DNA from: an uncultured Bacilli bacterium
Lineage (GTDB): Bacteria > Bacillota_I > Bacilli_A > RF39 > UBA660
Assembly: GCA_947588895.1 (NCBI GenBank)
Contig: CANQBF010000009.1
Coordinates: 1 to 35,223, forward strand
Length of the DNA: 35,223 nucleotides
Direction of reading: 5' to 3'
Shown: one piece after another, positions 11,946-22,092 of the stretch
Layout: each line of letters opens with the position of its first letter
How positions within the stretch are numbered: the stretch's first letter is position 1
Notes under the pieces: model-generated
What the model was told of the DNA's origin: nothing
The model's input: only the letters and a program-made list of their open reading frames with translations
Database searches by the model: none
Program-made: the position numbers and the translations under genes

Positions 11946-12089
11946 AAATACCTCACTCAATAAATAATTAATTTTAAATTTATAATATCATAATTTATAA
12001 TGTTTTAAAATAACTCATAAAAATTAAATTTTATATTGAATTTTAAAAATCATTACTTTATAATAGAAAGTCATAAAGGAGTAGGGTTT

Positions 12090-15000
12090 ATGGTAAAAGG
12101 TAAAAATAATAAAAAAATTATCACAATATTATTAGTTATTATTTGTTTAATTTTTAGTATATTTGTTGCAGGAAGTATTAAATATCAAGATAAAAAAGTT
12201 ATAAATAACAATTATCTTTCTTATGATATTAATAATTATCTTTATTTATCTGATATTAAATCTAATAATAATATTAATTTAGATAAAAACAAAGATGGTA
12301 AATTACTTAATTTAATAATTGATAATAATAAAAAAGTATTTATTAAAGGACTTTCATTTAATAATACTGAGGAAATAGTTTATGATTTAAGTAATTTACA
12401 ATATGATTATTTTACAAGTTATATTGGTTTAGATAGTAATAATTCAAATTCAAATAATATAACAACAAGTATTTATACATCACTTGATAATATTAATTAT
12501 GAAAAAGTTTATGAATATCAAGAATTAAATAAGAGTATTTTTGTTAAAATTGATATTCATGATATTAAATATTTAAAAATAAGTGTTACATTAGATGAAG
12601 ATAATACGGAAGTATATTATGCTGATGCTAAATTAGTTAAAGAAGGTTATGTTAAAGAAGAATTAAATACAACAGATATAATCAAAAATATTAATGAATA
12701 TGATAATTTAATTAAAGCATATCAAGATGATATTAATAATAATTTTAGTAATTTTAATAATTATCAATTTTTAATTTTACAAAGAAATTTAGTTAAAAAT
12801 ATTGGTTATAATGAAATTGAAGCTTTAATTAATTATGATAATGAATATCAAGAATTTTTAAATTATTTATTAAATAACCAAGATATTTTAGAATTATTTT
12901 TAATGGGTGGAATGCCTCAAGAAAATTATTTAACTAGTATCGAAATATTAAAAGATTTATTTAAGAATAATGAAGAAGATATAAATGATATTAATAATAT
13001 CAAATTAATGATAGCGATATCTTTATCATCTAATTTAAATACTGATTATCATAATTTATATAATACTAATAAACAATATATAGATGGATATGCAAATTTA
13101 AGTGTTTCAGAAATACGTTTAGCAATTAATAATAATGGTACGCCAAAAGTAGTTGTGAAAAATGATGAAATAAGTTCTTATTTAGTATTAGATAGTAATC
13201 GTTTATGGCATATTAATGATAAATTAAATATTAGTGATTTAAGAACTAAAGGCTATATTTTAAATAATTGGGGTTATGGTAAATATGCATCTAAAAATCA
13301 AGCTAGTTATTTACTTTTAAGTATTGATGCTTTAAAAGATTATGATAACTTTGTTAAAGTTAATGAATTAATTATGCTTTTAGATACATATAAAGATAAT
13401 AAAGATCTAATAAATAAAATTAATAATTATGCTTTAAATATTCAAAGTATTAATTTAGATATATGGTTAAATTTAATTAATGAATGTAATGATGATAATT
13501 GTTTAGTAAGTTTAGGTAATATGATTGTTGAAAAATTAGCTAATTATCCACTTCCAATGTATGATTTAATTAATCTTATTACTAATAAGATGACAAATTA
13601 TTCTTTAATAGCGTCTTTAAATAATACTTTAAATCTTACTTTAAATAATAATATTAACAATGATAATAAAATGATAAAAGATGTGGTTATATCTTTATTA
13701 AATAATAATTTAGATATAGTTAATTTTAGTTTTGATGGAGATAATAAAAATAAATTAATTTTAAATAATAAATATCAAGATAAGAATATTATTTGGCAAT
13801 ATAATTTAACTGGATTAGATAGTGATTGGCATGAAGTTAACACTAATGAAGTAGAATTAAGTTTAGATGAAATAAATTTAATAAATGAAGATAATGATAT
13901 TAAAATAAGATTTAATGATAATTTAGATGATATTTTTGTTATTGATATAAAGGGATCTCAATTACCAAATGATTTAGTTATTAATGATTATGAAAACAAA
14001 ATATATGGTGATTTAAGTTATTTAGAATGGCAAGATGAAAATAATAATTGGATTAGTTTTAATGATAAATTACCACTTTTAGATAATGAACGAGTTATAA
14101 CTATTCGAGTAAGAAAACATGAAACATATTTAGAAAGTGAAGTTAGTAGTTTAATCTTTACCCAAGATAATGTTAAAGAAGAAGAAACATATATATCACT
14201 AGATAATTTAAGTATTTTAAGTTTTTCATCAGAAGATGAAATTAATAAAGCTCAAAATATTATTGATGGTAATCCAAATACTTATTGGCAAACTAGTGAA
14301 GATGATTTAGATAAATATATAGTTATTAAATTAAATGAAGCTAAATATTTAAGTGGTTTAAGTATTAATAGTAATTCTATATCTAATGTATCTGTTTTTA
14401 CAAGTATTGATAATGTTAATTGGATAAATGTTACAAATGAGGTATCTTTAGAAAATAAAATTAATTTTGATCAAATTGAATTAGCATTATATGTAAAAAT
14501 AATTGGTATTGATAATGGAAGTGTATTAAATTTATTTGAAGATAAAACAAGAACAAGTATCCCAACAGCTAGTTTAGAATATAGTATAACTAGTCTTACT
14601 AATCAAAACGTTATTGTTAAATTAGTAAATCCTAGTAAAGAAATTAGAATCTTAAATAATAATGGTAGTGATACATATACTTTTAGTGAAAATGGCACAT
14701 TTACTTATGAATTTGAAGATTTATATGGTAATAAAAATAATGTAACTGCTGTAGTAGATTATATTGATAAAGAGTTACCAATAGCTAGTTTAGAATTTAG
14801 TACAATAGCTAAAACGAAAGATAGTGTTATAGTGACATTAAATAGTAATGAAGAAATAATTATTTTAAATAATAATGGTAGTAATGTATATACCTTTAAT
14901 GAAAATGGTACATTTATATTTGAGTTTACTGATTTAGCAGGTAATTATAATACAATAACGGCAAATGTTACATGGATTAATAAAAATACTGATGTTAAAG

Positions 15001-15455
15001 AAGAAACACCAAAAGATAATGATAATAATTATGAAGAAGAAATTCCAATTATTCCTAATAATGATAAAGAAGATAATAATAATCAAATAGTAGAAGAAGA
15101 ACATAAAGAAATTAATTGGGATTTAATATTATTCTTAATTATAGTTGGAGCTTTTATTATTGGAATTATTATTGTTAAATTATTTTCTCATAAGAAAGAA
15201 GAAAATTTAGATATTTTAAAAGATGATGATAAGTTATTTAAAGAAAATAAAAAAGAAGATTTAAAAGCGAAGAAAAATACAGAAGTATTTGAAGAAAATA
15301 CTAAAGAGTTATTTGCTAAAGAAGAAATAGTTGATGTTTTAGAGCGTAAGAAGACTGCTTCATTTGAAGCCAAAAAAGATAATTTATTAAAATCTAATAA
15401 TAATAAGAGAAATAATAAGAAAAAGGGAAGTAATAAAAATAAGAAAGCAAGCTAA
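12090..15455 (+). CDS. Large surface-anchored protein with discoidin (F5/8 type C)-like region(s) and two tandem Ig-like repeats, C-terminal TM plus charged cytoplasmic tail
   Basis: Signal/TM N-terminus; 'NIIDGNPNTYWQTSEDDLDKYIVIKLNEAKYLSGL' is discoidin-like; duplicated 'EIxILNNNGSxxYTFxENGTFxxEFxDLxGN'; TM 'WDLILFLIIVGAFIIGIIIVKLF'. Start M at 12090 with aaaggag SD. Confidence 0.8.
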   Translation: MVKGKNNKKIITILLVIICLIFSIFVAGSIKYQDKKVINNNYLSYDINNYLYLSDIKSNNNINLDKNKDGKLLNLIIDNNKKVFIKGLSFNNTEEIVYDLSNLQYDYFTSYIGLDSNNSNSNNITTSIYTSLDNINYEKVYEYQELNKSIFVKIDIHDIKYLKISVTLDEDNTEVYYADAKLVKEGYVKEELNTTDIIKNINEYDNLIKAYQDDINNNFSNFNNYQFLILQRNLVKNIGYNEIEALINYDNEYQEFLNYLLNNQDILELFLMGGMPQENYLTSIEILKDLFKNNEEDINDINNIKLMIAISLSSNLNTDYHNLYNTNKQYIDGYANLSVSEIRLAINNNGTPKVVVKNDEISSYLVLDSNRLWHINDKLNISDLRTKGYILNNWGYGKYASKNQASYLLLSIDALKDYDNFVKVNELIMLLDTYKDNKDLINKINNYALNIQSINLDIWLNLINECNDDNCLVSLGNMIVEKLANYPLPMYDLINLITNKMTNYSLIASLNNTLNLTLNNNINNDNKMIKDVVISLLNNNLDIVNFSFDGDNKNKLILNNKYQDKNIIWQYNLTGLDSDWHEVNTNEVELSLDEINLINEDNDIKIRFNDNLDDIFVIDIKGSQLPNDLVINDYENKIYGDLSYLEWQDENNNWISFNDKLPLLDNERVITIRVRKHETYLESEVSSLIFTQDNVKEEETYISLDNLSILSFSSEDEINKAQNIIDGNPNTYWQTSEDDLDKYIVIKLNEAKYLSGLSINSNSISNVSVFTSIDNVNWINVTNEVSLENKINFDQIELALYVKIIGIDNGSVLNLFEDKTRTSIPTASLEYSITSLTNQNVIVKLVNPSKEIRILNNNGSDTYTFSENGTFTYEFEDLYGNKNNVTAVVDYIDKELPIASLEFSTIAKTKDSVIVTLNSNEEIIILNNNGSNVYTFNENGTFIFEFTDLAGNYNTITANVTWINKNTDVKEETPKDNDNNYEEEIPIIPNNDKEDNNNQIVEEEHKEINWDLILFLIIVGAFIIGIIIVKLFSHKKEENLDILKDDDKLFKENKKEDLKAKKNTEVFEENTKELFAKEEIVDVLERKKTASFEAKKDNLLKSNNNKRNNKKKGSNKNKKAS

Positions 15456-15467: not shown

Positions 15468-15518
15468 GTGTACTCTTTTTGCCTATATAAGCATAAATTA
15501 AATTAGGGAGTGATAAAT

Positions 15519-16064
15519 TTGTCTAATTATCGAGAAATTGTAACTAAAGCTGTTATAGGTAAAGCAAAGAAAACGAGTGGTAATAAATTTCAAATTGAAA
15601 CTGATGAAGAACCTAATACTGTTTTAGGATGTTGGGTAATCAATCATAGTTTTAATGGAATGAATAATAATGGTAGTGTTTTAATTAATGGTTCATTTGA
15701 TGTTAATGTTTGGTATTCTTATGATAATGATACGAAAACTAGCGTTAGTACCAAAAGATTTACTTATACTGATAAAATGAATGTGCCACTTAAAAGTGAT
15801 ACTGTATTAGATAATAATTCCGAAATTATTGTTCGCAGTTTAAGACAACCAACAGTTACGGATGTTAAGATTAATAATGGAATAGTAGATTTAAATATTG
15901 AAAAAGAACTTGGTGTCGAAATTGTTGGTAATACTAAAGTTAAAATTGCTGTTGAAGATTTAGATGAAGATTATGTTGAATTAATTGATGAAGAATTAGA
16001 TAAAGAAATTGATAATATTAATCCGGAATATTTAGAAGCAGAAGAAGTACAAGATGAAAACTAG
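15519..16064 (+). CDS. cotE: Outer spore coat protein CotE
   Basis: 'MSNYREIVTKAVIGKAKK...VLGCWVINHSF...FDVNVWYSYDNDTKTSVSTKRFTY...VEIVGNTKVKIAVED...INPEYL' matches the Bacillus CotE pattern (SEYREIITKAVVAKGRK / LGCWIINHKY / YDINVWYSYADNTKTEV / INPEFL). TTG start at 15519 with agggag SD. Confidence 0.92.
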   Translation: MSNYREIVTKAVIGKAKKTSGNKFQIETDEEPNTVLGCWVINHSFNGMNNNGSVLINGSFDVNVWYSYDNDTKTSVSTKRFTYTDKMNVPLKSDTVLDNNSEIIVRSLRQPTVTDVKINNGIVDLNIEKELGVEIVGNTKVKIAVEDLDEDYVELIDEELDKEIDNINPEYLEAEEVQDEN

Positions 16065-16134: not shown

Positions 16135-16407
16135 ATGGCTGTTAAATTAAGATTAAAAAGAATGGGAGCAAAACAAAAACCTTTTTATAGAATAGTTGCT
16201 GCTGATTCACGTTTTCCAAGAGATGGACGTTTTATTGAAACTGTTGGTACTTATAATCCAATTAAAGGTCAAGACCAAGTAGTTATAGATGAAGAAAAAG
16301 CTTTAAAATGGTTAAATAATGGAGCAATTCCTACTGATACCGTTAAAAATATTTTATCAAACGCTGGTATAATCAAGAAATATAACGATAATAAAAAGAA
16401 AAACTAG
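16135..16407 (+). CDS. rpsP: 30S ribosomal protein S16
   Basis: '[42 protein letters not shown]'. Confidence 0.98.
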
Positions 16408-16697: not shown

Positions 16698-16751
16698 AAT
16701 AAAAAATTGCTTATATGGATAATATTTGTTAAAATTATGCTAGAGGTTAGT

Positions 16752-17423
16752 ATGATAAGATTAGAAAATATAATTAAAAGTAGTGATAAATATCAAAAAG
16801 GTGTTTTTTCTTTAAATAATATCAATATAACTTTTAATCTTAATCAAATATATAATATTGTTGGTAATATTAACAGTGGTAATAAAGATTTGTTATTAGT
16901 GCTAGGATTAATTGATAATGTTGTTGCTGGTTCATATTATTTAAATTCAAAAAAAATAAATGAACTAAGTAATAGGGAAAAAGCCTTTATTAGATTAAAA
17001 GAATTTGGTCTAGTTTTAGATAAACCTTTATTTATTAATACTTTAACAATCTTAGAAAATATTATATTACCCATTTATTTTAATAAAGAGATAAATTTAG
17101 AAACTAAAAAAAGTAAAGCTATAAAATTATTAAAAGAATATAATTTAGAAACTTTAGCTAATTTATATCCAAATAATTTAACCTATTATCAAAAACAAAT
17201 TATTAGTTTAATTCGAGCTTTAATTAATAATCCTAATTATATTTTAATAGATAATATATTTGATGAAATGACTGATTTAGAAATAAAAAATTATTTAGCT
17301 TATATAAAAAAATTGAAACAAGATAATAAAACAATTATAATGGCATCAAGTAAAAAAATAGAAGATACAGAAATTGATAAAGTAATTTATATGGATAAAG
17401 GAGTGATACTTCTTGATAATTAA
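16752..17423 (+). CDS. ABC transporter ATP-binding-like protein with degenerate catalytic motifs
   Basis: Overall ABC ATPase architecture of LolD/MacB/FtsE type, but Walker A 'GNINSGNKD', signature 'LTYYQ', Walker B 'ILIDNIFDE', H-loop 'IIMASSKK'. Confidence 0.75.
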   Translation: MIRLENIIKSSDKYQKGVFSLNNINITFNLNQIYNIVGNINSGNKDLLLVLGLIDNVVAGSYYLNSKKINELSNREKAFIRLKEFGLVLDKPLFINTLTILENIILPIYFNKEINLETKKSKAIKLLKEYNLETLANLYPNNLTYYQKQIISLIRALINNPNYILIDNIFDEMTDLEIKNYLAYIKKLKQDNKTIIMASSKKIEDTEIDKVIYMDKGVILLDN

Positions 17424-18255
17424 AGGATTTTTAAAAAATAAAAAGAATTATAAATGTTTAGTTATTTTGATTATATCAATTTTTATTTTAACAATATTAT
17501 TACTTTTAAAATCATATTATATAAATAAAATTAATAAATTTAATGAAGATTCACTATTTAATTTTCGAGTAAATATTGATTTATATGATGATATTAAAAA
17601 TATTAATAATATTAAAGATTTATATGTAAGTATTTTAGGTAAATATGATAGTAATGTTATTAATTTATTAGCTAGTAAAGATAATAATACTTTAAAAAAT
17701 AATGAAATAATAATTAATAAAAAAATTTTTAATAATGTGCATATTAATGATTTAATATCTATTAATTATCAAAATAAAAATTTTGAGTTTATTGTTAAAG
17801 ATGTTATAGATAATATAAATTATGATACTATTGCATATATTAATTATGATTATTTACAAGAAATAGCTAATGGCGAAAAAGAATTTTGGATGTATATTAC
17901 TTTAAATAATTATTTAGATTTTGATAATACTAAATATGAACTACAAAACTTACATGGCTTTAATGCTAGTGTTGATAAAATAACTAATAATAAAATTTTA
18001 GAAATAGATTATGAATTTCATTTAGCTATAGTTAATATTATATTATTTTTTTACTATATAGTTTTAGTAATAATTATTTGTTTTATTTTATATAGTGTAA
18101 TTCATAATAGTGAAGATAATAATTATTTATATAAATGTTTTGGTTATAATTTTAACCAAATTATTTGTATTAATATTATTAATATATGTATTATCTTTTT
18201 AATTCCCATATTTATTAGTATTATCTTTTATTATTTAATTTATTTAATTTTATAA
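17413..18255 (+). CDS. Putative FtsX/MacB-like permease partner (280 aa)
   Basis: Overlaps the upstream ATPase-like gene; N-terminal TM, soluble middle, two C-terminal TM stretches. Confidence 0.55.
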   Translation: MIIKGFLKNKKNYKCLVILIISIFILTILLLLKSYYINKINKFNEDSLFNFRVNIDLYDDIKNINNIKDLYVSILGKYDSNVINLLASKDNNTLKNNEIIINKKIFNNVHINDLISINYQNKNFEFIVKDVIDNINYDTIAYINYDYLQEIANGEKEFWMYITLNNYLDFDNTKYELQNLHGFNASVDKITNNKILEIDYEFHLAIVNIILFFYYIVLVIIICFILYSVIHNSEDNNYLYKCFGYNFNQIICINIINICIIFLIPIFISIIFYYLIYLIL

Positions 18256-18325
18256 ATTATTGCACCATATAAAAAAATATGTTATTCTTAAATTAGTAAA
18301 TATACATAGATTTGGGGAGGTTTGA

Positions 18326-20170
18326 ATGATAGCAATAAATAATGAATCAGGAATTTGTGAAGGAATAATTAATACTTTAAATATTATATATGATACATAT
18401 GAAAGTAATTTAAATAAGAAAATATATATCTATAATAATTTTATTAATAATTCTAAAGTTATTGATGAATTAAATAATTTAGGAATAGAAATTATTGATG
18501 ATATAACTTTATTAACTAGTGATGATATATTAATAATTAATACTTATGGAGTATCATATGATATTTTAAATTATTTAAAAGAAAATAAAATTGAATATAT
18601 AGATACTTCTTGTAAAAAAATTAATAATTTAAAAAAAGAAATATTTAAGAAATATAAAGATGATTATGAAATTTTAATTATTAATAATGAATATAGTGAG
18701 ATAATTAATTCTTGGATATTAGACACAGGAATTATAATTAATGATATTGATGATTTAAAAAATTTAGAAGAAAGTAAAAATAAAGTTTTAGTTGGGTATG
18801 ATTATTTTAATGATACAAATGAAATAATTAATTATTTAAAAGATAATTATCATAATGTATTAATTGAAAAAATAATATTAAATTGTGAAAATCATTTAGA
18901 GTTAAATGAATTAATTGAAGATAATAATATAACAAATAAAATTATTATTGCTGAAGAACATGAAAATATCAATAATAGTTTTAATAATATAGCATCCGTT
19001 ATTAAATATATTTTAGAAAGTAATTTAACTAAAGAAGATGATATAAATTTAATTGGGAGTAAAAATACAACAATTAAAGAATTATGTAATTATAAATATT
19101 TAATATCATTTTTATTATATTATAAAGAAATAGCTTCTAAATTAAGAGAGAATCAACAAGATTTTAATAATAAATTAAGAGTAGATAGTGATAATGAACT
19201 GGTTAATTTAGTTTATGATGATATTAGTTATTTAAATCAAGATGGTAAATATATAAGAGGAGTTTTAATTGCCCTAGGAGAATATATGACTACTTGTAAT
19301 AATATTAATTATCTTGATTTAGCATATGCTTATGAACTTTTTCAAACTTCTGTTTTAATTCATGATGATATTATTGATAATGCTAAAATTAGACGAGGAA
19401 AAGATACGATTCCAAGAAGTATATGTAAAAAATATTTAAATAAAAAACGTAGTCAAAATTATTATGACGATACTATAAGATTAGCTAATTCCATTGGTAT
19501 ATGTGCTGGTGATTATGGATTTTATTTAGCTAATAAAGTAATAATTGATAATTATCAAAATCATAAAAATTTTAATAAAATATTAGATTTATATAATGAT
19601 ATTGTTATTAAAACAATTAAAGGAGAAATAATTGATGTTTATTTACCATATTTAAGTAAATATAATTATAAAAAAGTAGAAGAGCAAGATATTATTGATA
19701 TATATCATTTAAAAACTAGTTGGTACACCATTATTGGACCAATGTCACTGGGTTATTTACTTGGCGAAAATCAAATATCTAAGGAATTACAAGATATTTT
19801 AAATAATATTGGCATATTGTTTCAAATTAAAGATGATTTATTAGGTATATATGGTAATACTAAAGTTATAGGTAAACAAAATACATTGGATATTGAAGAA
19901 TTTAAACAAACTTTATTATATTCATATATCATGAATACAAGTTATCAAAAAGAATTCTTAAAAATATATGGTAAAAAGAATGTAAGTGATAATGAAGTAA
20001 AAAGAATAAAAGAATTATTAAATGAAAGTGGAGCATATGAATATGTTACTAATTATTTAGATGATTTATATAGTTTAACTATTAATAATATAGATAGTTT
20101 AGAATTAGAAGAAGAATATAAAGATATCTTAAAAGGTTTATTAATATATATTTTAGAAAGAAATAAGTAG
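18326..20170 (+). CDS. Fusion: degenerate IspH-like domain (~1-255) + trans-polyprenyl diphosphate synthase domain (~260-614)
   Basis: N-terminus aligns along the IspH pattern with Cys at 11, 96 and 187; C-terminus has 'LFQTSVLIHDDIIDNAKIRRGKDTI' (DDxxD) and 'FQIKDDLLGIYG...GKQNTLDIEEFKQTLL' (second Asp-rich motif). Confidence 0.85.
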   Translation: MIAINNESGICEGIINTLNIIYDTYESNLNKKIYIYNNFINNSKVIDELNNLGIEIIDDITLLTSDDILIINTYGVSYDILNYLKENKIEYIDTSCKKINNLKKEIFKKYKDDYEILIINNEYSEIINSWILDTGIIINDIDDLKNLEESKNKVLVGYDYFNDTNEIINYLKDNYHNVLIEKIILNCENHLELNELIEDNNITNKIIIAEEHENINNSFNNIASVIKYILESNLTKEDDINLIGSKNTTIKELCNYKYLISFLLYYKEIASKLRENQQDFNNKLRVDSDNELVNLVYDDISYLNQDGKYIRGVLIALGEYMTTCNNINYLDLAYAYELFQTSVLIHDDIIDNAKIRRGKDTIPRSICKKYLNKKRSQNYYDDTIRLANSIGICAGDYGFYLANKVIIDNYQNHKNFNKILDLYNDIVIKTIKGEIIDVYLPYLSKYNYKKVEEQDIIDIYHLKTSWYTIIGPMSLGYLLGENQISKELQDILNNIGILFQIKDDLLGIYGNTKVIGKQNTLDIEEFKQTLLYSYIMNTSYQKEFLKIYGKKNVSDNEVKRIKELLNESGAYEYVTNYLDDLYSLTINNIDSLELEEEYKDILKGLLIYILERNK

Positions 20171-20180
20171 GAGGATTTAA

Positions 20181-21002
20181 ATGAATAAGAAAATGCATAG
20201 TAAAGAAAATGATAAAAGTTTAGAAAGAGATATATTAATAAGTAAAATATTAACTTGTATTATTATCTTTTTAGTTGGTGTAATTGGTGGAGTATTATTA
20301 GAAAAAAGCATGTTAACAGTTAAGAAAGAAGAAAAAGAAGATAATAATACTAATGAAAAAGTAGTAAGTATATATGATATAGAACCGATTGTTAAAGAAT
20401 ATAGTACTATTGATAAAAGCAAAGTATATTTATATAATACAAATGAAATAGAAATTAAAAAAGATAATGAAAATATAAAATTAAGTGAATATTTAAAAAG
20501 TTATAAAAATAGAGATGATTTATTTAAAAGTATTGAAAAAGAATTAGAATTAGTTAATAGTTTAAATGATGGAGGTACTAATATATATAAATCTAAAGAT
20601 AATAGTATGTTTAATAAAGATATTACTATTATAAAATGTAATACAACTGAAGGTAATAAAGATATATATATTGGTGAATATATGAATACTACAACAGCAT
20701 TTGAAAATGGTGCATGTAATAAAAAGATGATAAAAGATGCAAAATTTACAAAAGTATATACTATAAAAAAGATAAAATTAATTCAAGATAATAAATATGA
20801 ATTAACTATATATGATAAAACAAATGATAAAAGTGTTACCATAGAAAGAGTGATTAATCAAGATAGTTTAGATATATTAAAAGAAAATAAAGAATATACT
20901 TTCCATTTTACCAATAAATATCAAGAATTAATCAAAGATGATATTAGTACTATTTTTGATGAAGCTAGTTTAGCTGGAGTTGTTCCACTTGAAGAAGAGT
21001 AA
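20181..21002 (+). CDS. Hypothetical single-TM membrane-anchored protein
   Basis: 273 aa; TM 'ILTCIIIFLVGVIGGVLLE' then a soluble domain. Confidence 0.65.
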   Translation: MNKKMHSKENDKSLERDILISKILTCIIIFLVGVIGGVLLEKSMLTVKKEEKEDNNTNEKVVSIYDIEPIVKEYSTIDKSKVYLYNTNEIEIKKDNENIKLSEYLKSYKNRDDLFKSIEKELELVNSLNDGGTNIYKSKDNSMFNKDITIIKCNTTEGNKDIYIGEYMNTTTAFENGACNKKMIKDAKFTKVYTIKKIKLIQDNKYELTIYDKTNDKSVTIERVINQDSLDILKENKEYTFHFTNKYQELIKDDISTIFDEASLAGVVPLEEE

Positions 21003-21657: not shown

Positions 21658-22092
21658 ATGTTAAAAGAATTTAAAGAGTTTATTTCAAGAGGCAATGTAG
21701 TAGACTTAGCAGTCGGTGTTATTATCGGAGCTGCTTTTGGAAATATTGTTACTAGTTTAGTTAATAATATTTTTACTCCAATTATTGGAATTGTTTTAGG
21801 AGGACATGATTTTTCTAATTTATCGATTACTTTTAGAGATGCCCATATTATGTATGGAGCATTCATTCAGTCAGTTATTGACTTTTTAATTAATGCTATA
21901 TGTTTATTTGTAGTTGTTAAAATAATTAATAACTTTAATAATGGAATACATAAATTAGGTAAAAAAGGAAAAGAAGAGAATAAAGAGGAAGCAAAAGAAG
22001 AAGTTAAAGAAGAACCTAAGAGTGAAGAAGTATTATTACTTGAAGAAATAAGAGATTTATTAAGACAAGAAAAGAAAGGAAAAAGTAAATAA
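21658..22092 (+). CDS. mscL: Large-conductance mechanosensitive channel
   Basis: '[45 protein letters not shown]'. Confidence 0.96.

Follow-up and report, generated by a model that had tools for sequence, protein, structure and literature searches.

The window analysed here, a stretch of 35,223 nucleotides from the genome of an uncultured Bacilli bacterium, encodes a protein of 614 residues that unites an IspH/LytB domain with a complete prenyl diphosphate synthase in a single open reading frame. The three cysteines that serve as cluster ligands in IspH are all kept in this protein, and the catalytic residues of the reductase are gone. Both domains are known ones; their combination, its single origin and the decay state in which only the cluster ligands persist are new as far as we found. 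As a whole, we favour, with some reserve, the explanation that the N-terminal part would be a decayed IspH whose cluster has been kept as a redox- or iron-responsive structural or regulatory element in cis.

Domain architecture and genomic neighbourhood of the fusion gene

The Pfam family LYTB matched residues 2–181 of the protein with an E-value of 3e-21 (76 bits, cut-off 24.5), and polyprenyl_synt (PF00348) matched residues 300–564 with an E-value of 2e-40 (139 bits). PF00348 is the only C-terminal family according to Pfam, and C-terminal S1 RNA-binding repeats are absent from the fusion. The NCBIfam equivalogs of IspH were matched far under their cut-offs, with 68 versus 188 bits for TIGR00216. 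A phmmer search against the PDB returned IspH chains, the best with an E-value of 2e-9. Chance resemblance to IspH is ruled out by the profile and phmmer matches together with the Foldseek matches given below, and an assembly chimera is ruled out because dozens of independent genomes have the fusion and its synteny is conserved. The coordinates of the gene, its parts and the conserved neighbours are collected in Table 1.

Table 1. Positions in the window of the fusion gene, its functional residues and the genes of the conserved block
Feature	Position	Strand	Basis or remark
CotE-like spore coat gene, first in the conserved block	15510..16064	+	Pfam
Ribosomal protein S16-like gene (rpsP), same block	16135..16407	+	Read from sequence
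Ribosome-binding site GGGGAGG	18314..18320	+	5 bases upstream of ATG; read from sequence
IspH-like/trans-prenyl diphosphate synthase fusion gene	18326..20170	+	614 aa
Pseudo-IspH domain, residues 1–262	18326..19111	+	Pfam; three lobes by AlphaFold2/Foldseek
Cys11 (TGT), E. coli IspH C12, cluster ligand 1	18356..18358	+	Alignment
Asn41 (AAT), replacing catalytic His41	18446..18448	+	Alignment
Tyr74 (TAT), replacing catalytic His74	18545..18547	+	Alignment
Cys96 (TGT), E. coli IspH C96, cluster ligand 2	18611..18613	+	Alignment
Tyr123 (TAT), replacing catalytic His124	18692..18694	+	Alignment
Cys187 (TGT), E. coli IspH C197, cluster ligand 3	18884..18886	+	Alignment
Polyprenyl_synt domain, residues 300–564	19223..20017	+	Pfam
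First Asp-rich motif DDIID (347–351)	19364..19378	+	Sequence and alignment
Second Asp-rich motif DD (503–504)	19832..19837	+	Sequence and alignment
Gene of 273-aa protein with N-terminal hydrophobic stretch	20181..21002	+	No Pfam family above cut-off

Across the genus the gene order cotE, rpsP, fusion, 273-aa gene is conserved, and in 10 loci there the 273-aa gene adjoins the fusion. Between rpsP and the fusion, the window carries a pair of genes for an ABC ATPase and an FtsX-like permease (16707–18255), which most relatives lack at this place. The neighbour of cotE (12036–15455) encodes a protein of 1139 residues in which NPCBM and F5/8 type C domains, both carbohydrate-binding, are present. 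Judged by its sequence, the gene at 21658–22092 encodes a small heat-shock (Hsp20-like) protein, and several relatives have similar genes close to their fusion. In a second fusion clade (L046–L057 and L067) uppS adjoins the fusion gene, and in relatives with the synthase only the order is synthase, uppS, a cdsA-like gene and an rseP-like gene.

Both aspartate-rich motifs of the synthase are invariant among 29 aligned fusions, and so are the Gly-Lys-x-x-Arg motif of the IPP site, His346, Arg356/357, Lys463 and Gln500. The C-terminal half is thus a full prenyltransferase, as a sequence-only reading of this DNA had claimed. The small residues preceding DDIID resemble those of Corynebacterium glutamicum IdsA, and the sequence suggests a C15–C20 product. 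Exactly one PF00348 protein was found in each of the 48 genomes of our set, and UppS is present in 46 of them.

Active-site residues and predicted fold of the IspH domain

The window protein was compared with a sequence of E. coli IspH, the N-terminal part of which agrees with the PDB chain from phmmer; the catalytic and ligand roles of the aligned residues are those of the E. coli enzyme. In this alignment Cys11, Cys96 and Cys187 coincide with C12, C96 and C197, and the three catalytic histidines have given way to Asn41, Tyr74 and Tyr123; the sequence-only reading had proposed both, as well as the IspH (LytB)-like nature of the N-terminus, and the alignment, the LYTB match and the structure search bear it out. 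The losses extend further. The equivalent of T167 is D159, and the S225/S226/N227/S269 pocket is also gone, with A209, E211 and N247 standing at the phosphate-pocket positions of Ser225, Asn227 and Ser269. The same reading had stressed that the glutamate equivalent to E126 is kept. This glutamate is present in the window as E125, but it carries little weight, since the nearest relatives have T, N or K at the same position.

AlphaFold2 models, built without the cluster, have a pLDDT of 89.3 and a pTM of 0.86 for the whole protein, and a pLDDT of 92.7 for residues 1–265 alone. When the latter model was searched with Foldseek, every one of the 12 PDB chains matched at E<1e-3 was an IspH (TMq 0.65–0.75), and the alignments cover the full domain. 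The sequence profile fades past residue 181; nonetheless the model includes the third lobe and its Cys187. Because every Foldseek match is IspH, the window domain is predicted to possess the complete three-lobed fold.

Judging from these replacements, the domain almost certainly does not act as an HMBPP reductase, and it is very likely that the activity has been lost in the window lineage. It had also been suggested that the domain senses HMBPP or DMAPP. The equivalents of H41, H74, H124, S225, N227 and S269 are precisely the residues that were lost, and since the ligands of the diphosphate and of the substrate are thereby missing, such a sensor appears unlikely; a cluster that is redox- or iron-responsive, or merely stabilising, would be the likelier one.

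Might the new residues instead form a rebuilt pocket, in which the cluster acts on a different substrate? Asn41, Tyr74 and Tyr123 are common to the window protein, its three nearest relatives (about 55–60% identity in the domain) and L044, as would be expected of a new catalyst. However, the other decayed relatives differ at these positions (F/V, Y/R, D/V, E/T) and the region is deleted in some, and the changes from His to Asn and from His to Tyr are single AT-increasing ones, as expected from drift. A new catalytic function is therefore quite improbable in our judgement.

Probable single origin and repeated erosion of the fusion

About 40 genomes of uncultured Bacilli, many of them from gut or rumen samples, contain a full-length fusion, so that the two domains are not encoded separately throughout the relatives. 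Of the distinct fusions examined, 22 have a complete active site, nine of them in the window's genus, and in all 22 the residues C12, H41, H74, C96, H124, E126, T167, C197, S225, N227 and S269 are present. Two of these intact fusions (L005 and L006) have SHN where the others have SSN. Within the genus, to which some loci were assigned by the tree of the synthase part and others at the genome level, there are nine intact copies, 13 decayed ones with the three cysteines (the window and 12 more) and one, G332/L152, which has lost the cysteines plus much of the IspH domain. Outside the genus, two lineages (L051/L055/L057 and L056) have lost all three cysteines yet retain about 260–270 residues of the domain. 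Three further relatives (L007, L008 and L011, from G190, G085 and G057) have a synthase preceded by the third IspH lobe only, matched by Pfam with 27 bits in the L008 genome, and others have a synthase without any IspH part. The lone third lobe of L007, L008 and L011 retains the Ser-Ser-Asn motif and the stretch Ile-x-Gly-Thr/Ala-Lys-Asn.

All intact IspH domains of fusions fall into a single clade, separate from standalone IspH with a tree support of 100/100; therefore the fusion most likely arose once and was eroded many times. We have hardly any doubt that the window gene descends from an active fusion, and since intact fusions exist in the same genus, the window copy would have arisen by decay of an enzyme that probably had both functions.

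In the tree of the synthase part, decayed and intact copies are interleaved. An AU test against a single clade of the decayed copies gave a p-value of 0.03, or 0.018 with G332 included; the value is modest, and the group was defined after the sequences had been inspected. That the active site was lost just once in the genus is thus modestly rejected. From the interleaving and the AU test together it follows that the cysteines were probably retained through several separate losses.

A standalone ispH gene in another genome (G214:C6:37591-38431, L153) is broken by frame and stop changes. This genome has the intact fusion L053, so the separate copy seems to be dispensable.

Retention of the cluster cysteines and selection on the decayed domain

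In the nine intact members of the genus, 103 IspH columns are invariant, of which the 13 decayed copies keep 47% on average. Only nine of these columns are kept by all 13 copies, and all three ligand cysteines are among the nine (hypergeometric P 5e-4, a value that is indicative only, as related sequences are not independent). Each of the three ligand sites is a cysteine in 13/13 decayed copies. The four invariant histidine columns are kept in 0/13, and two non-ligand cysteine columns that are equally invariant in 2/13 and 4/13; these lost columns control, within the same sequences, for the type of residue and for mutation pressure. The codon TGT is one step from TAT and the gene has a GC content of 18%, so drift should have erased the cysteines. 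When intact, decayed and standalone domains are aligned together (27 sequences), C11, N42, G75, C96 and C187 are the only invariant positions.

As the three cluster cysteines are selectively kept, a bound Fe-S (or other metal) centre is argued for. A cluster is probably still bound by the pseudo-IspH domain, and the three cysteines could also hold a metal other than Fe-S. The idea of an Fe-S-bearing domain that is not a reductase, put forward in the sequence-only reading, is well supported as far as residues can tell, by the ligands that are kept and the catalytic residues that are gone.

The dN/dS values of intact IspH domains are 0.07–0.17, close to those of their own synthases. For the two closest pairs of decayed copies in the genus the values are 0.25 and 0.32 for the IspH part versus 0.15 and 0.17 for the synthase; in the pairs with the window itself, which are more diverged, they are 0.48–0.50 versus 0.35–0.49. 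Purifying selection still acts on the decayed domain, where the constraint is relaxed, not absent. Relaxed dN/dS fits a slow decay equally as well as a new role. The IspH part, cysteines included, might be a useless remnant that is eroding and that persists since its clean removal is hard. Such a relic would agree with the full erosion series (intact, cysteines only, no cysteines, third lobe only in L007, L008 and L011, synthase only), with the roughly doubled dN/dS of the decayed domains and with the internal deletions in L039, L041, L045 and L066. However, it leaves unexplained why the cysteines at all three sites survive in each of the 13 copies, although one event does not account for the losses and comparable non-ligand cysteines are gone, and it conflicts with the dN/dS of close pairs, which is well under 1, and with the confident AlphaFold2 prediction that the window domain folds. 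We thus regard a simple relic as unlikely.

The cluster could also be retained for purely structural reasons. In IspH one cysteine per lobe tethers the three lobes to the cluster (PMC3868525). A clasp that merely binds the lobes together and spares the synthase destabilisation, without any sensing, would suit this arrangement and the retention of the cysteines even in copies with a shortened lobe 2. Nevertheless, L051, L055, L056 and L057 keep their 260–270 residues without the three cysteines, with dN/dS of 0.32–0.38 for three of them, and a mere clasp therefore seems very unlikely. The cysteines have been lost in three lineages, so the cluster must be dispensable to the synthase in some species.

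Isoprenoid pathway context

The pathway was surveyed in 48 genomes, comprising 45 reduced Bacilli and three Clostridia with a normal pathway as in-set positives, and these positive controls behaved as expected. HMG-CoA reductase was found in 0/45 Bacilli genomes, which speaks against a mevalonate rescue, and type-2 IPP isomerase in 0/48 genomes, so it does not offset the lost IspH. IspF was likewise found in 0/45 Bacilli genomes, IspG in only two (G057 and G157) and DXR in one (G003). Order-wide, an IspH match is present in 37 of 385 genomes and IspG in only 5. Of the intact IspH proteins, about nine fused and ten standalone ones belong to genomes where IspG was not found. The genomes are MAGs, that of the window being 83% complete; because of this incompleteness single gene absences are weak, and the joint pattern of absences is not. 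HMBPP salvage would be the simplest reading of an IspH without IspG.

Intact fusions occur together with IspG in G392, where dxr adjoins ispG, and in G015, as would be expected if the fused IspH was once a true reductase of the MEP pathway. The genome G350 of the window's genus has a decayed fusion and a standalone canonical IspH (L126 and L151), and IspG was not found in it. This standalone IspH groups in the tree with that of another genus, and possibly it was re-acquired or is a contamination of the MAG; if not the latter, the pattern suggests that IspH activity is useful without IspG.

In G057 and G157, IspG and a standalone IspH are present, and IspF and DXR were not found, which looks like an MEP pathway truncated from the top, perhaps with uptake of MEcPP. 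In G003 (L123) dxr is retained, and IspG and IspF were not found; its sibling G392 (L148) has dxr and ispG adjacent, as if decay of the pathway were under way within one genus.

A canonical ispH elsewhere in the window's genome was looked for and none was found. This genome, having no IspH that would work by its sequence, should therefore need external IPP/DMAPP or prenyl phosphates.

Proposed history and role of the fused domain

We propose that a working HMBPP reductase (IspH) was fused once with a class I trans-prenyl diphosphate synthase. The ancestral polypeptide probably turned HMBPP into IPP and DMAPP and then condensed both, feeding UppS for undecaprenyl phosphate. In the window species the active site of the reductase would have decayed and the synthase, the cell's only one, would have stayed. 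It would have to run on external IPP/DMAPP or longer prenyl phosphates, and would be the sole source of allylic primer for UppS. The IspH part, with its fold and three cysteines under selection, most likely still carries an Fe-S cluster, and without the residues that bind and protonate the substrate, this cluster would most likely respond to redox state or iron as a structural or regulatory element in cis. That it regulates the synthase is a tentative suggestion, possible rather than probable. Doubtful as a whole is the wider account in which the intact fusion of Bacilli that have no IspG, and apparently neither the upper MEP steps nor the mevalonate pathway, salvages the HMBPP of neighbours into prenyl diphosphates within a single polypeptide, and in which the IspH body, where its reductase activity was repeatedly lost, has become an Fe-S switch that controls the synthase in cis.

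If the cluster is present, these proteins make up a natural series that shows the fate of an Fe-S enzyme once its pathway vanishes, from the active enzyme through the cluster-only, cluster-less and third-lobe-only states to the synthase alone. Of greater consequence are the intact relatives, in which the last MEP enzyme has stayed under selection in the absence of IspG. They allow a direct test of whether gut bacteria salvage a late intermediate of the MEP pathway, HMBPP, which is also a human T-cell antigen.

Comparison with known systems

No published IspH–prenyl synthase fusion, HMBPP salvage or IspH pseudoenzyme was found in the open-access literature. For the order RF39, genome reduction and auxotrophies have been described (PMC6784871), and so has uppS in RF39/RFN20 (PMC7301438); the passages searched in these two papers make no mention of such a fusion.

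The window domain shares with IspH/LytB (PF02401, TIGR00216) the three-lobed fold, the order of motifs, the three cluster cysteines, N42 and G75. Unlike IspH/LytB, it is fused to a synthase and is devoid of the three catalytic histidines, the threonine and the phosphate-binding Ser/Asn residues. The synthase part has both aspartate-rich motifs and the other invariant residues of class I trans-prenyl diphosphate synthases (PF00348), its nearest solved relative being the GGPP synthase of C. glutamicum (3lk5/3qqv), and differs from them in the added N-terminal IspH domain. In the fusion of IspH with ribosomal protein S1 (NF000907/PRK00087), an IspH domain also heads a larger protein. In contrast, the partner here is a prenyl synthase rather than S1, and the IspH domain of the window is predicted to be inactive.

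Isoprenoid genes have been lost from other reduced bacteria too, among them Mycoplasmoides gallisepticum, Rickettsia and Listeria (PMC10663253, PMC13001223). A survey that covered 4,400 complete genomes judged IspG and IspH to be evolutionarily rigid, and the one genome there from which IspG alone was missing was an incomplete file (PMC10663253); Mollicutes that have lost either only IspH or all steps are also on record (PMC13001223). In the published losses, the upper enzymes are kept and IspH or IspG is lost, or everything is lost (PMC10663253, PMC13001223). Different from these, the Bacilli described here have kept the last enzyme of the pathway, with IspG and apparently the upper steps missing.
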